Source: Planoprotostelium fungivorum (lineage: Eukaryota; Evosea; Variosea; Cavosteliida; Cavosteliaceae). From it: a DNA stretch of 42,393 nucleotides. Location: NCBI GenBank assembly GCA_003024175.1, contig MDYQ01000227.1:1-42393 (forward strand), given 5' to 3'. The translations under genes were made by a program, and so were the position numbers. The notes below the pieces were generated by a model, which was not told the DNA's origin, searched no databases, and worked only from the letters and a program-made list of their open reading frames with translations. Shown piece by piece: positions 13,544 to 40,294 of the stretch (positions are counted from its first letter, which is position 1; every line of letters starts with the position of its first letter).

Positions 13544-15746
13544 ATGGCTGAACCATTGAGGAGATCGACCTTCTTGGTGTATGACCAACTCCATCAAGAT
13601 GAGTCTTCCTCTGAGGGAGAGATCATCTTATACTATTGGCCACCCGATCTCCCAACGGCCTACCAGTTCTTTATTCAAGGAGGAACTATGGCTGCATTGT
13701 CCCTCATATCTGATATCGGACCGATGGATTCAGGACAAGCAGAGGAAGAAGGAGGCCCAAAGAAATCAGATCGTACGTCGAGACTCCGTCGTGATAACCT
13801 CTTCGAATCGTCACAGCCTACCATCTTTCTCAAACTCCAGAAGAACAAATTTGCAGTGAAGAAGGAAGATCCTTTCGTCTTCGTATTATCCTCAGAGATC
13901 TCTGAGCCAGATGCCTCTTTGGGTGCATCTCTGGACATCATATACGAGGCATTTCGTTTCTACCATCACGGTCCCACACAACTCTTAGAGGTGAGCGTGA
14001 CAATCCCTTCACAGCCATCCCATCACAATCATATGACGTCCATTCAGAAGAACAAAGACAAGAGTCGGAGGGATCTGATGGACGACTTCAAGAGAGCCTT
14101 CGACGAGCTCCTTCCCCTCTTGACTGACAGCACTTCCCCACACTCGGTTCATTCACACACGAACATCTCATTATCCAACTCGACGGGTCTCCCCACCATC
14201 ATGCCCCGTCTCGCCTTTAACACTCTTCCTTACGCACAGCTACCTACGGTGAGATCATCCTCTACTCTCTTTCATCACACACGCGATGCCATGTTGATCG
14301 TCTGCACAGAAGAGCAACCGTCTGTACATACAAGCGTCACAGATATTAGATCGTCTTTCTACTTTCACACTCAGAACCAACGAAACGAAGGACAAGGATC
14401 TCCGTGTCGATGAAGAAACGAAGACGGGAGCTCATCGTGCCGATGATGATGATAATGAGACATCAGAAGGAGAAGATGAAGACAATCGTCATCCATCATC
14501 TCACAAGGGAGACATCGTCATGTTGGATTTAGAAGGAATGGTCATCGATGATGGAGAGAGGGAAACGATGGAGAGTGAAAGAGTGACGAGAGAGAATGGA
14601 GGAAAGGCGGGAGATGTTGTCTTTGGGTCTCTTCTGTGTCATCACAACCGGTGAGTCACCATGATGATCATGCGACACCCGCTGATGACGATCAGCATCG
14701 TCATCACACAATTGGACGATTGTATATCGAGGTTCATACTCAACAAGATCATGCACATTGTGAGAATCGACATCATCACTTGCATCATGATGACGAGAGA
14801 CAGAGGAACACGACAGACATTCGAAGGAGTGAAGACGATTGGAAGACTCCACACTGGGACCGCTTCAACGTCTACGTCTCATCCAAGAGATTGAAGAGGT
14901 GACACCCTCTCTTCATCCTCTCTATCTCCTTCTCTCCATCTATCATCTCTAACGTTCAACAGTCTATTAGGTCAAGAGAAATACGATCGGTACAAGGACA
15001 GCATGAGAGCAGACGACACGGAGGAACAGATGGTCTGTGGATTGTACATATTGACTTACAGCACCATCGCAATTGCCACTCTCGTCGCCCCCTCTGCCAT
15101 ACAAGATCCATCCTTTTTAGCCTCCCTCTCCAAGGTGTCCTCTTCATTCGAGAAACAATTTCGAACCAGACAGGTCACACAAGACTGTGGCGTCGCAGCT
15201 TACGAGACGTACCTCAATCGATCCTTCCGCGACCACTCCCCCACTCACCGACTGGTCGGTCACCGCAGCCATGTGAATCACAACATCAGCCTGACGTCCA
15301 GTGGAACACACTTACCTCTCCTCTCTTCTTCTTCAGTCAATCTCAACCACACGAACATCTGCACGTGCATTCGAGTTCCATGGACTACAACGGAGGAGCC
15401 CAGCACGTATCACTATCTGTATTACGACGGTCTAGTGCATACGATGCAGGCGACGGGGCAATCTACAACGGATGGGAGATTTCTCACCAACACAAACTAC
15501 GCGAGGAGCATGTTTATGGAGAACTCGAATCTGTCTCAGATCTTACTGCAGTGAGTCAAGATGATGAAGAGGGGAGGTGTGATGAGATACAGAGACATCA
15601 AATCGGGGATCTACTGCAGGAGGATGATGGACAAGGAGCTCTACTTTCAACCGAATAGTACGAATCCACACGATGTGTTCATGAAGTACATCGATCAGAC
15701 GGTGCAGATCAACATGAGGAGGGATCATCAGATCAATATCTTGTAG
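13544..15746 (+). CDS. HPS4-like subunit of BLOC-3 (Rab32/38 exchange factor)
   Basis: A longin-domain protein resembling HPS4, which with HPS1 forms BLOC-3, the GEF for Rab32/Rab38 in lysosome-related organelle traffic. From ATG 13544 the first longin domain reads STFLVYDQL...GEIILYYWPPDLPTA...ALSLISDI, then the most conserved block FLKLQKNKFAVKKEDPFVFV and FRFYHHGPTQLLE, aligning with human LRKLKFAIKV...FFNFYNGP. A long acidic low-complexity linker (DDDDNETSEGEDED) precedes a second longin-like part (DVVFGSLLCHHNRIVITQLD) and the C-terminal region (GLYILTYSTIAIATLVAPS; YHYLYYDGLVHTMQATG; then DIKSGIYCRRMMDKELYFQ). About eight exons give roughly 600 residues. The first three are long and open; exon ends near 15.3 kb are approximate. 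CCZ1 was considered, but HPS4 fits better at both ends. Confidence 0.72.
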
Positions 15747-20409: not shown

Positions 20410-21467
20410 CTATGGGCAGGAGATACTGTTGGAGAGATTCACTCGGTCCAACAATCTGTCGAAGGCAGACAGGAGATTCTTGAGCCCGATGAGATAGCCT
20501 TCATCGTGGGTGTTGTTTGTGAGAGGGAAGACGTGGGCAAAGTCGATCATCTTCAATGACACGCGTGGGTTCTCTTGTTCGGACGCTTCGTTTCCTTTGT
20601 TTCTGTATCAGTGTCTGTGGTGTGACATGAGAAGGTATCACCTTCGTAGATGAAGAGGAGGGAAGATGAGATGAACTTGAGGTCCGTCTGTTGTTCGAAA
20701 AAGTGCAAGACCTGAGAAGAGTTTAGAACATGAGAGGGAGACGTAAGTCACCTTCTTTAGTTCTACGATGAACGAGGAGATGACGGGTCGTCTGAGTGAT
20801 TCACCGTTGTGAAAGAAGAGTCTATATACGTCAGAAAGATTCTCATGTTGTCCGTGTTCGTCCCACCTGAAGTTCTCCAGGACATTGTCTTCCGTGATCT
20901 GCTTCGTCCAGCTCTTATCTCTCACCATCAAGTTCTTCTGCACTCTATCGTACACCTGGTCGTTGTCAATCGAATGGAGATGAAGACAGGCCTTCACTCT
21001 GAACCCTGTGAAACGGTATCCCAAATTGGTCGTGGTCGTTAGAACATCCTTCTGTCTCATCGCGATGGCTTTCTCTGTGGTGGCATCATCTCCCGCGCTC
21101 GTGTTTCCCATCTTGATGTCGAGGATGGAAGGACATTCGAAGTTGTGGGTGAGATCGTCTAATGTGATGTACTCTGTGAGATGTCAGCACTTGGATCGTG
21201 ACTGAATGGTGACCTTTTCCATCAATAGAGGTGGTGCCGTGATATCGAGGAACGAACTGATGCAATGCAGGGAACCTTTGGTACGGACCTTCGAAATCAA
21301 TGAGAAGGATAATATTGATATCGTTTACCTTCATAAAATCCAATCTCCTTCTTCGAGGTATGCTTCATAATGCGGTCTTTCTGTTTCAAGAAAGCATCTC
21401 CGTGACCTCCAGTCTGGTTGTTAAAGGATTCTATGGGTGCATTGGGTATGGTTCCCTCGTGGCTCAT
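20410..21467 (-). CDS. Inositol polyphosphate multikinase-type kinase (IPK family)
   Basis: A kinase phosphorylating inositol polyphosphates, of the IPMK/Arg82-IP6K family. From ATG 21467 the first exon holds SFNNQTGGHGDAFLKQKDR, an IPK-type N-terminal start. Then come GPYQRFPALHQFVPRYHGT and the inositol-binding PxxxDxKxG signature (PSILDIKMGNTSAGDDATTEK). Further on are LGYRFTGFRV, FFHNGESLRRPVISSF, SSSLLFIYEG and the metal-binding DFAH block (MIDFAHVFPLTNNTHDEGYL), ending in GLKNLLSAFDRLL. About 320 residues and five introns. The SLLFIYEG and FFHNG blocks favour IPMK, whereas KMGNTSAGDDA is closer to IP6K, so the subclass is uncertain. The stop is at 20410. It lies between two GARP genes on the same strand. 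Confidence 0.88.
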
Positions 21468-24995: not shown

Positions 24996-25207
24996 GAATC
25001 ATAGATGCAAGTGTTTCTGGATATAGACCACACATCTGGGCTGGTTCTGCGAGCTTGCTGGGTGGGGAAACACAATGAATACACCGTGCGTGCTCTTGTC
25101 AAAAAAATCCAATAAACCCGCCACCTTTTCTTTGAGCGCACATCACAACATCGAGGGAGCGAGAAGAGGCAGGGACAGTGACAACCAAGACACACACACA
25201 CGTAGAG

Positions 25208-25879
25208 ATGGATGAACCACAAAAGAACCAAGAGGGAGAGGATAGCTCTCTGAAACATTTGATCAAATCCTTCCTCTTCTTCCCAGACGAGCTGCAGAGC
25301 ACCCACAGACACTTCCCTGCATTGACACAATGTGGATCCATTCGCTTGGATTCCAGCCTACCTCCCCCATTTCGATCCACCAACCCAATGGAAGACACTA
25401 AGCGGCCCGAACAGCAACCGAAAGAACAACAATGGCCGACACCTTCCAAAGAGCAACCACCAGTCTTACACAGAGCCCCCTTCCATGAAATGCAGCGTGC
25501 GGGATCCATTGCCGAGACGAACACACCACCGAGCCACACCTCCGATGAAGAAGAGGAGGATAACGGGAACGCCATCAACGGCGTTTGGATGAGACACTAC
25601 GAAGAACTGAGACGTTTCAAGTCCCTGCACCACCACACGAACGTAACGAGGACGAAGAAGGACACGAGGAAACTGGGGAATTGGGTGGCAGAGCAGAGGA
25701 GAAAGAAGAAGCAGGGGAGGTTGAACCAACAGCAGATCGACTTTCTCACAGCTGCCGGCTTCGAGTGGGAGAAGAGGAGGAAGAGATCGTCCAGAGAAGA
25801 GCCCGCCTCCCCTCCCTCCGACTTCGCCTCGACCGCCTCTTCTGCCTTGATGAGTCTCTCTCAGTCGGGGAGGTGGTAA
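25208..25879 (+). CDS. Small protein with helicase-associated (HA) domain
   Basis: A single-exon gene of 223 residues, unusual here where most genes are interrupted. The N-terminal half is polar and Pro/Gln/Ser-rich (PEQQPKEQQWPTPSKEQP) with an acidic run (SDEEEED). Residues about 125-190 form a helicase-associated domain: WMRHYEELRRFKSLHHHTNV, KKDTRKLGNWVAEQRRKKKQ, GRLNQQQIDFLTAAGFEWEK. This matches the W..Y..L..F...H.H.NV...LG.WV..QR...K.G.L....I..L...GF.W consensus. The domain is best known as repeats beside bacterial and algal helicases; alone, its role is unknown, though DNA binding is inferred from its three-helix basic fold. The tail is Ser-rich. The start at 25208 is the first ATG with a good downstream frame. 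Confidence 0.82.
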   Translation: MDEPQKNQEGEDSSLKHLIKSFLFFPDELQSTHRHFPALTQCGSIRLDSSLPPPFRSTNPMEDTKRPEQQPKEQQWPTPSKEQPPVLHRAPFHEMQRAGSIAETNTPPSHTSDEEEEDNGNAINGVWMRHYEELRRFKSLHHHTNVTRTKKDTRKLGNWVAEQRRKKKQGRLNQQQIDFLTAAGFEWEKRRKRSSREEPASPPSDFASTASSALMSLSQSGRW

Positions 25880-25931: not shown

Positions 25932-27237
25932 ATGAGTGGTGTTGTGTTCTCGTTTGAAATTTCGGAAGAGGAGGAACACGTGTTTTGCGCCCTCGGAGCG
26001 TGAGTAACGGTTAAAGCTGTCAGTTTGAAACTTTGGCGCCATTTTTCTTCGGCGCCAGGAACTTCAAAATTTCAGTCGGAGCAAACAGCACAGAAGACCT
26101 CATCTCTTGTCGAATGAAGGACTCTATCATCACCCCCACTCGCCCAGCACCCGTCCTACCTCAAGCCAACAGAAGACAAGTTGCCACAGCCCCCGCATCT
26201 GTCGATCCTCTCCTTCAAGACAACAAGGACCGCTTCGTCCTCTTTCCCATCAACTATTCTGAGATCTGGAAATTCTACAAGGTGGCTCAGGCATGTTTCT
26301 GGACCGCAGAGGAGCTCGATCTCGTTCCCGATCTCAACGATTGGAACAACAAACTCAACGATAACGAGAGATTTTTCATCTCTAGAGTCTTGGCTTTCTT
26401 TGCTGCCTCTGATGGTATTGTCAACGAGAACTTGGCCTGCCGATTTATGAGCGAGGTTCAGGTGTGTCGATCACATTCCCATTTCGTTCTCACATTCTGA
26501 TCTCACTACAGATCCCTGAGGCTCGCTGCTTCTACGGATTCCAGATTGCCATCGAAAACATCCACGCCGAGACTTACTCTCTCCTCATCGATACATACAT
26601 CAAGGACAATGCCGAGAAGAACATGCTCTTCCACGCCATCGACAACATCCCTTGCGTCAAGAAGAAGGCAGACTGGGCACTCCACTGGATCAACGACTCC
26701 GACTCTTTCGGAGAGAGGCTCGTCGCCTTCGCCGCCGTCGAGGGCATCTTCTTCTCTGGATCCTTCTGCAGCATCTTCTGGCTGAAGAAGAGAGGTCTCA
26801 TGCCCGGACTCTCCACCTCCAACGAGTTCATCTCCCGTGACGAGGGCCTCCACTGCGATTTCGCCTGTCTCCTCTTCAACATGCTCCAAGTGAAGCCCTC
26901 TCAAGCCACCGTGGCCAAGATCATCCTCGATGCGGTAGAATGCGAGAAGGAGTTTGTCACAGATGCACTCCCCGTAGGACTCATCGGAATGAACGCCAAC
27001 CTGATGACCAAATATATCGAATTCGTCGCCGACAGACTTCTCGTGGCCCTCAACTGCCCGAAGCACTTCAACACGGAAAACCCGTTCGACTGGATGGTTC
27101 TCATCTCTCTGCAAGGGAAGACCAACTTTTTCGAGAGAAGAGTCTCCGAGTACGCCAAGGCCAACGTCGCCTCTGGTACTTCTGCTAATGGAAGCGGTGC
27201 TGCCAAGCGAACGCTCAACATCGTCGACGAGTTCTAG
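25932..27237 (+). CDS. RRM2: Ribonucleotide reductase small subunit R2 (class Ia)
   Basis: The R2 subunit houses the di-iron centre and tyrosyl radical that drive reduction of ribonucleotides to deoxyribonucleotides. Core blocks: [29 protein letters not shown] (iron-ligand Asp), [13 protein letters not shown] (Glu), [20 protein letters not shown] (Glu, His and the radical Tyr), [35 protein letters not shown] (Glu, His), [20 protein letters not shown], and a C terminus TLNIVDEF that binds R1. One intron, 26462-26512, splits the core. Two starts are possible: ATG 26114 (about 357 residues), or ATG 25932 with a 59-nt intron (GTGAGT...GCCAG) that joins in frame to an acidic N-terminal exon ([12 protein letters not shown]). 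I favour the longer form because a TATAAAT precedes it. AATAAA follows at 27256. Confidence 0.94.
25983..26056. promoter_or_regulatory. Cluster of E2F-like sites at the RNR2 5' end
   Basis: Three matches to E2F/DP-type half sites lie within 75 bp: TTTTGCGCC at 25983-25991, TTTGGCGCC at 26032-26040 and TTCGGCGCC at 26048-26056. RNR subunit genes are classical S-phase E2F targets in animals and plants. The sites fall within the putative first exon and intron, just upstream of ATG 26114. Function is inferred from motif and gene identity. Confidence 0.55.
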
Positions 27238-37398: not shown

Positions 37399-38234
37399 AT
37401 GAAGTGGTTGTGATAGATCACACCCCAAGCCACAGACAAGCTTGGCGGAGTTGCTCAATACAACTCCGGGAACTCCGCGACAGGTGGGCTATTGCAATTC
37501 GACGAGCGGTCAGTCTTCAGCACTCCCCTCTTTGCGGAGATTTACCATTATCAAAACACCTTCCGAGCCAGGGGGTCACATTCAACGAGACGAACAACAC
37601 GACGCAAAGATGATGGTTCCAGAGAGTCTACGCCAACAGATGATGCCCACCTTTGAGGAAGAGGCAGTCATGTGCAGGAGAAAGAAACAAGCGTGCGTGC
37701 ATCACAGTCTGAGTGGTTGACTGATATACCCGTAGCAGCCACAAGATCACAGAGCAGAAGGGGAGACAGCGAATCAACATGCAAATCAACGACCTGAAGA
37801 ACCTACTCCCTGAGTGCAAGTCAGTCGTGACGACTAAGGCAGCCATTTTGGAGTGTGCTGTGATTTGCCTCAAGAGGTTAAGGGAGACCGTACAGTCGAT
37901 GGAGAGCGACAACTACACAATGCAGAGGGAGAACGCCCTGCTCAAGGAACAGGTCGGCCGCCTTCGAAACTTCAAGCCAGAGACACAACCCCACCCATCC
38001 AATCTGCAGGGGTTTGTCAAGGACGAGCCCTCTACAGAGTGCTTCTCGGACGAATACTCCTTCGACGAGCTCGAGTTCGACAGTCCAATAACTGGATTAG
38101 AGGAGGACTTCACCTCAGTCCCCGCCAGTGGACTGGACTTCAGTCACTTTAGGATGATAGAGGGATCAGATCTGTCTTTTTCTTCCCTCTTCGAAGTAGA
38201 AGATGTCACCCCCAAAAGGATGAAGCTGCTGTAG
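37399..38234 (+). CDS. bHLH transcription factor
   Basis: A probable E-box-binding regulator of about 245 residues. The preferred start is ATG 37399 with a six-base coding exon, a 32-nt intron, then SLAELLNTTPGTPRQ; an upstream start cannot be excluded. A polar region leads, over an intron at about 37692-37736, to the basic region and helix-loop-helix: RRKKQASHKITEQKGRQRIN, MQINDLKNLLPECKSVVTTK, AAILECAVICLKRLRETVQS. A leucine-zipper-like continuation follows (ENALLKEQVGRLRNF), so it is bHLH-ZIP-like (USF/MITF style). The His, Glu and Arg contact positions of E-box binders are present. The C terminus is acidic and aromatic (DEYSFDELEFDSPITGLEED; FSSLFEVEDV), typical of an activation domain, ending KRMKLL at 38234. 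Confidence 0.82.
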
Positions 38235-38417
38235 AGACGGTCGAGGGACAAAGGAATATATGTAAGATACTATGAGGAGTGCATCGAGAATAGAGAAAGA
38301 GGAACGTTCCTTGTGTTGATAAACAGTAGAGACGACGTAGATGACATTATTCGATGTACGAACGTCGTGACAATGAAGGTGATGGAAGAATAGGAGAATC
38401 TGCACACAGCCTGCAAT

Positions 38418-39034
38418 TTATGGGAGATTGTCCCTCAAGTATTCTACAAGATGCTCTGTCTTCCATCCATCGATCCTGTTTGAGAATGAGCTCGAGGAGG
38501 AACGGATGAGACTCACTTGAGAGATTCAACAGTACCCTCAGAGTTGACCAGTTGGAGTGTGGGATCAGAATAAGCTCTGTACTGGTGGGTATTAGCCAAG
38601 GTAATTTGAAGAGCTGTCACCTCTACTTGCAACCTGGGGAAGTCTTTGGCGTTACGATTGATGAACGTCTCAATGTGTGGATAGCGCTCCACTTTCCACT
38701 TGCATATGATCAACTTTCCTTCCGCAAAAGAGTTGTTCTAATGGTAATGAATCAGCTCGGTGAACTTTGATCATGTGTATCACCTTCGCACCAGATTCGG
38801 ACTGTCGATCGCAACAAGATAGACAATCATCGTATAATGCTGCTCTTTTTAGTGGAGTAATTCAGGATCTCAAGACTCACTTGCGTCTTTTACGAACGTC
38901 TTCAAGTCTTCACACTTGGAGCAGCTGACGTGATCGAATCCCAATTCGAGACAGCTCTGTTCTGCTACGACCACAGATGCGGATAGACAATAAATTGCAA
39001 TAACTACCAATAGAGATGCTGTTCTCCCTCTCAT
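38418..39034 (-). CDS. SELENOF: SELENOF (Sep15) homologue with Trp at the selenocysteine site
   Basis: A secretory-pathway thioredoxin-like protein; animal SELENOF binds UGGT in ER glycoprotein folding. From ATG 39034 there is a signal peptide (RTASLLVVIAIYCLSASVVV), then the Cys-rich UGGT-binding part (CLELGFDHVSCSKCEDLKTF; LYDDCLSCCDRQSE) and the redox domain (KLIICKWKVERYPHIETFIN; FPRLQVEYRAYSDPTLQLVN; WKTEHLVEYLRDNLP). Four introns of about 38-46 nt restore a length of about 150. Human SELENOF has Cys-Gly-Sec at the active site; here it is Cys-Lys-Trp, the Trp codon being TGG at 38696-38698. So neither Sec (TGA) nor Cys is encoded, and thiol-redox activity of the usual kind seems lost. 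No SECIS-like hairpin was evident downstream. Confidence 0.86.
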
Positions 39035-39129
39035 GTTGTGTGCGTCACTGAATAATAAAAATGACTGAAAAATCGAATAAATTGCAGATTTTTCTCCCCA
39101 GCTGATGTGCACATCAGGCCTCGTAAAAG
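39035..39129. promoter_or_regulatory. 95-bp bidirectional promoter, SELENOF/MOB1
   Basis: Only 95 bp separate the two start codons, which face apart, so both promoters and 5' UTRs must fit here. The segment is AT-rich near SELENOF (AATAATAAAAATGACTG). Co-regulation of the two genes is inference. Confidence 0.6.
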
Positions 39130-40294
39130 ATGAGCTTCTTTGGACTGTGAGTGACGTTTAGTTTCAATTCAGATATCATTATATCCATCGTCTCTTGAGC
39201 CGTATCTATCTCGTCGTTACAATACATCCAACATCTTGCGCACTTAATGCATATCATGGTATTATCGAACCGTATATGACGTTTTTATCACTCACCATAT
39301 AATAATCTTTTGAATCTGAAGTGAAATCAGAAACAAGAACAAACAACAAGTGAAAACAAAGAAGACAGAGGACACGAAACAATATCAATTGAAGCAATAT
39401 GCTGAAGCAACACTAGGGAGTGGTAATCTCCGCCAAGCGGTTCGATTGCCAGAAGGAGAAGATCTGAACGAATGGCTCGCCGTGAATAGTGAGCACCTCC
39501 TTTCGGTTCGTCCGATCGATTCGCGCTGACGTGCAACGTACAGCTGTCGACTTCTTCAATCAAATACACATGCTCTACGGAACGATCACCGAGTTCTGTA
39601 CTCCTCAGGCTTGTCCTGTCATGTCCGCCGGTCCAAAGTGAGCTCATTCTCATCTGTTTCCCTCATCTTCATCGTCCCCCACACGCCATACATCATCATC
39701 CTGCGAGATACTGAAGAGAGAAGGTATGAATATCACTGGGCAGATGGAACGACGATAAAGAAAGCCGTCAAGTTGGATGCACCTCATTACGTAGACGCTC
39801 TGATGCATTGGGTTCAATCGCACCTCGACGATGAGAACATCTTTCCCTCGAAAATAGGTCCTTCTCCTCTCTACTCTCTCCTCTATCTACTCTCTACCCT
39901 ATCTCTCCTCTCTCCTCTATCTACTCTCTACTCTATCTCTCCTCTCTGCTCCATCACACATACAACCCGTATTAGACGATAAGAAGATGAGACGACTCAC
40001 GTGTAGCAGGAATACCGTTCCCAAAATCGTTTCAGACGTCAGTGAAGAACATCTTTAAGAGATTATTCCGAGTATACGCACACATCTATCACTCTCACTT
40101 CAACAAGATCGTCAGCTTGGGAGAAGAGGCTCATTTAAACACGTCATTCAAAGTGATCCATCCGTGTGATGCACGTGACTGATCGTGTGCAGCACTTTAT
40201 ATACTTTGTACAAGAATTTCAATTGGTGGAGAAGAAAGAGCTGGCACCTCTACAAGAACTGATCACTCAACTGATGAATAGAACACCCGAATAA
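39130..40294 (+). CDS. MOB1: MOB1 kinase activator
   Basis: The co-activator of NDR/LATS kinases in Hippo/mitotic-exit signalling. A 17-nt coding exon (MSFFGL, from 39130) is followed by an unusually long intron (39147-39321, 175 nt). Then come [134 protein letters not shown] and [18 protein letters not shown]. The zinc ligands (Cys-x4-Cys and His-x4-His) are intact. About 210 residues, family length. A CT-rich low-complexity intron lies near 39.86-39.97 kb. The stop at 40292-40294 sits inside GAATAAATT, overlapping the poly(A) signal. Confidence 0.96.

Follow-up and report, generated by a model that had tools for sequence, protein, structure and literature searches.

A SELENOF homologue with Cys-Lys-Trp at the selenocysteine site in Planoprotostelium fungivorum

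In Planoprotostelium fungivorum, the minus strand of positions 38418-39034 in the analysed stretch of 42,393 nt (contig MDYQ01000227.1, hereafter the window) carries an apparently intact homologue of SELENOF/Sep15, a helper of protein folding in the endoplasmic reticulum (ER), running from an ATG at 39034 to a TAA whose last base is 38418, and the codon matching selenocysteine (Sec) encodes Trp. We consider it probable (about 70%) that this is an intact nuclear SELENOF (Sep15) orthologue which has lost the CxU redox pair and would serve as a non-redox partner of UGGT. This reading builds on features of the sequence itself: a hydrophobic segment at the N-terminus, a UGGT-binding domain with its six cysteines, a Sep15_SelM domain, Trp at the Sec position and the retained Cys82.

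Gene structure and family membership

If only three introns (41, 46 and 41 nt) are modelled, the protein has 162 aa and shows a 13-residue insertion in the alignment with fly Sep15. The insertion corresponds to a 39 nt GT-AG intron (38620-38582), which is in frame, stop-free and easily missed. Once this fourth intron is spliced out, the protein has 149 instead of 162 aa. PF08806 (Sep15_SelM) in Pfam then scores 55.7 bits, against 44 bits before, and the phmmer score for the fly Sep15 entry 2A4H in PDB is 38.9 bits (E 6.4e-9), up from 23.4 bits (E 0.0004). The correction leaves the CKW site untouched.

The final model consists of five exons, all in frame, and four introns, all GT-AG, without internal stops. 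Exon 1 (38881-39034) is followed by intron 1 (38840-38880, 41 nt), and exon 2 (38784-38839) encodes the second half of the Cys-rich domain with the motif CLSCC (Cys57, Cys60 and Cys61). After intron 2 (38738-38783, 46 nt) the thioredoxin-like domain starts in exon 3 (38621-38737) with LIIC-K-W-KVERYP. Exon 4 (38517-38581) encodes YRAYSDPTLQLVNSEGTVESLK, and exon 5 (38418-38475) encodes GWKTEHLVEYLRDNLP followed by the TAA stop, with no KDEL-type ending; the two are separated by intron 4 (38476-38516, 41 nt). Intron 3, the 39 nt intron, is supported by the gain in Pfam and PDB scores and by the best-scoring splice model described below.

The PF08806 score is well above the cut-off of 26 bits, hence the match is not due to chance. 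What sets SELENOF apart from SELENOM is the N-terminal UGGT-binding domain with six cysteines. All six are present (Cys 28, 38, 41, 57, 60 and 61), with a spacing of 10-3-16-3-1-21 compared to 11-3-15-3-1-20 in the human protein, as worked out from the residue numbering in the available text of PMC8360269. The thioredoxin-like domain aligns to 2A4H from residue 68 to 147, and identity to the fly fragment is 37%. A hydrophobic stretch, by eye a putative signal peptide, follows the start, and the protein ends in RDNLP. The preliminary description of this DNA had named the gene a SELENOF homologue on the basis of the letters and had counted the UGGT-binding cysteines in its favour; the Pfam and fly scores bear out the identity, and the cysteine set proved complete with near-human spacing.

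Searches for relatives were also run in two collections of contigs that are not meant for eukaryotes. In viral contigs none of 7 pattern matches obtained with the 162 aa protein and none of 113 obtained with a three-sequence alignment were confirmed, and the same was the case for all 49 pattern matches in bacterial and archaeal genome contigs.

Introns in the window are short, its GC content lies at 0.45-0.51, and its genes are ordinary eukaryotic ones. A gap of 183 nt (38235-38417) lies between the stop of SELENOF and the TAG stop of a convergent bHLH transcription-factor gene (37725-38234, plus strand), and an exon of the Mob1/phocein family (39530-39979, plus strand) is found on the opposite flank. 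Elsewhere in the window there are a gene for the ribonucleotide reductase small chain (26015-27237, plus strand) with a 50 nt intron (26462-26511) and a TAG end, a helicase-associated (HA) domain (25136-25879, plus strand, 62.2 bits) and an inositol polyphosphate kinase domain (20638-21183, minus strand, 69.1 bits). The Sec61-alpha gene (17821-16661, minus strand) has two introns of 75 and 57 nt that are in frame and stop-free; they show as insertions in the alignment, and a gene finder would readily retain both. At 24.2 bits, a Pfam match to 'Sel_put' at 14895-15551 fell short of the cut-off of 25 and was disregarded as a selenoprotein candidate.

The codon at the selenocysteine position

The CKW motif (38696-38704, minus strand) is made up of Cys82 (TGC, 38704-38702), Lys83 (AAG, 38701-38699) and Trp84 (TGG, 38698-38696). 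In the phmmer alignment Trp84 stands opposite the second Cys of the CTC motif of fly Sep15 in 2A4H, and the human SELENOF motif at the matching position is given as Cys-Gly-Sec in the available text of PMC9304195. The minus-strand reading and the alignment to the fly CTC confirmed TGG as the codon matching Sec, as first proposed. The codon is neither an in-frame TGA nor a Cys codon, and the site is thus of neither the Sec nor the CxC form.

It had further been stated that when members of this family lose Sec, Cys usually takes its place. This holds for some invertebrates, but not outside animals: according to the available text of The algal selenoproteomes (PMC7539508), land plants and certain algae have CMR in place of the CxU motif of SELENOF, some green algae have DQW, and a Cys homologue was not found in the algae. 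The green-algal DQW form has Trp at the Sec position, hence the Trp found here has a precedent, and the same text describes TGA to TGG (Trp) as a one-base change. Its authors regard the persistence of the CMR and DQW homologues as evidence of selenium-independent functions. With neither Sec nor Cys at the site and with its domains intact, the P. fungivorum protein falls into this class of other homologues. CMR also aligns at CKW in an approximate Arabidopsis SELENOF sequence, which serves as a lead and not as a test. Among the matches listed in our narrow literature search, DQW occurred only in PMC7539508, and CKW in SELENOF was not found.

A base-call problem at the very codon that matters had been named as one of two explanations for the Trp. 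In that case the true codon would be TGA, a base-call or assembly error would have hidden it, and the gene would be an ordinary selenoprotein. The one-base difference between TGG and TGA stands, and an amoeba with a Sec-containing SELENOF exists in Dictyostelium, as given in the available text of PMC2375036. Against this, the site is preceded by Lys, and not by Gly as in the human CGU. No SECIS was matched by Rfam in 37700-39100 at E values up to 10, in a search run without a positive control for protist SECIS; the sole Rfam match in this region was a snoRNA at E 6.1, which we ascribe to chance, and at the gathering score the whole window gave no match. The canonical SECIS core needs TGA. As the 183 nt gap is free of TGA on the SELENOF strand, a canonical SECIS cannot start in it, and neither can any of the 22 candidates returned by a scan of 37400-38417 with a loose SECIS-like pattern, which is a crude filter. 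A SECIS inside the region of the neighbouring gene is excluded by the Rfam search alone. The search for a SECIS in the 3' UTR, suggested in the preliminary description, hence came out empty. A tRNA search of the window with ARAGORN gave no hit, a result that is silent on the rest of the genome. The Lys before the site, the undetected SECIS and the TGA-free gap together weaken the base-call explanation, and we now regard it as very unlikely.

A splice form restoring Cys or Sec would equally undo the case for Trp. Possible splice forms were enumerated in two ways. The first enumeration kept exon 1, the first donor and exon 5 fixed and allowed introns of 25-130 nt with a GT or GC donor and an AG acceptor. 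Its 31,632 combinations gave 5,519 distinct open proteins of at least 110 residues. When these were compared with the fly fragment and with the approximate Arabidopsis sequence, the five-exon CKW model ranked first with scores of 119 and 240. In the second enumeration exon 4 was fixed as well, and 592 of the resulting 13,694 models kept the RYPHIETF frame. Trp was at the site in all models retaining KVERYPHIETF (307/307), and CKW was present in all that retained both CLSCC and LIIC (72/72). None of the 592 had TGA at the Sec site; a single TGA occurred in 28 models, in each case 11 residues ahead of RYP.

Just upstream of CKW (38737-38684, minus strand) another frame reads LFCGRKVD. Counted by eye, about 14 of 22 bases agree between the DNA coding for CGRKVD and that coding for CKWKVE, probably by chance. 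A splice form using this C-G-R-K stretch could avoid CKW and restore a usable active site, and Cys does fall at the Sec offset in 58 of the 592 models that keep the RYPHIETF frame, 52 of them through the CGRK reading. However, all of these 52 need a 28 nt intron, against 39-75 nt for the other introns modelled in the window, and the CxC pair or the LIIC strand is kept in none of the 58. The best model of this kind scored 106 and 217, compared to 119 and 240 for CKW. The CGRK reading was rejected on these grounds, and with neither a CxC pair nor a TGA at the site in the enumerated models, we consider any such rescue by alternative splicing extremely improbable.

A possible role on UGGT without the redox pair

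Trp was expected to abolish the redox pair while keeping a single Cys, and this agrees with the gene model: CKW keeps Cys82, and the second chalcogen is absent. An intramolecular selenenylsulphide or disulphide is thereby impossible, hence the protein should not act as a CxU or CxC reductase. In the available text of PMC7687155 the six conserved cysteines are described as critical for binding to UGGT, with a Kd of 20 nM, and binding of Sep15 is reported to raise the activity of UGGT1 and UGGT2, the basis of this effect being unknown. From the complete UGGT cysteine set together with Trp at the site, we infer that a non-redox UGGT cofactor, the other of the two explanations offered at the outset, is the best reading. 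The protein would enter the ER and, as it has no retention signal, would be retained there by UGGT, which it may support by binding and stimulating it. Alternatively, the support could consist in presenting misfolded glycoprotein clients to UGGT on the thioredoxin-like surface.

The thioredoxin domain is redox active in both human (PMC9304195) and fly (PMC6266307) according to the available texts, and the human domain reduced insulin, yet was not PDI-like (PMC9304195). Given this redox activity, the missing pair could reflect a relaxation of selection and not a different function. A missing catalytic residue is one of the early signs of gene decay, and the gene might be a decaying copy or paralogue whose redox site was lost under relaxed constraint. 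This is hard to square with five in-frame exons, the GT-AG boundaries of all four introns, the full set of six cysteines in the UGGT domain and the degree of identity to the fly fragment, and we hold decay to be unlikely.

In a further alternative, the lone Cys82 would bind clients through mixed disulphides and keep them on UGGT, while Trp84 would shape the surface to which they bind. We know of no experiment on such a monothiol mode, and none appeared among the matches listed in the literature search. Cys82 is kept and its partner lost, as in the land-plant CMR form, but the DQW form is also without the Cys, which argues that this residue is not generally needed (PMC7539508, available text). 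We give the monothiol mode only a slim chance, and it would seem less likely than a role on UGGT as a scaffold or in client binding.

Further, we speculate, although we regard the scenario as rather doubtful, that one step from TGA to TGG in a lineage using Sec, separate from the green-algal DQW forms, made SELENOF a fixed cofactor of UGGT with a single remaining thiol. If true, a recurrent Trp would mark a selenium-independent structural function of the Sec position. The role of SELENOF for UGGT is still open between reduction of client disulphides and modulation of UGGT, as presented in the available texts of PMC7687155 and PMC7563561, and the existence of natural homologues with the UGGT-binding domain but no redox pair is an argument that part of this role is independent of redox activity. 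This argument can already be drawn from the CMR and DQW forms; the CKW form, if its lineage proves separate, would be a further instance of it and a ready natural mutant.

Comparison with known SELENOF forms

The Sec-containing SELENOF of animals and Dictyostelium shares the Cys-rich UGGT-binding domain and the Sep15_SelM domain with the P. fungivorum protein, but has Sec where the latter has no Sec codon and no detected SECIS. Drosophila Sep15 (2A4H, CTC) has the thioredoxin-like domain in common with it (residues 68 to 147, 38.9 bits); at the site the fly protein has Cys and is redox active with a potential of -225 mV (PMC6266307, available text), whereas P. fungivorum has Trp.

The closest likenesses are to forms known from the available text of PMC7539508. 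The CMR SELENOF of land plants and certain algae resembles CKW in that the Cys is kept and the Sec position holds neither Sec nor Cys, and differs in having Arg at the site in place of Trp. The green-algal DQW SELENOF shares with CKW the Trp at the Sec position, the loss of the Sec motif and the retention of the protein, but is without the preceding Cys which CKW has kept; the register and the taxa of this comparison follow the wording of that text and not an alignment. The CKW SELENOF of P. fungivorum thus looks like a member of the published non-Sec, non-Cys homologues together with CMR and DQW, and would extend this known pattern modestly.
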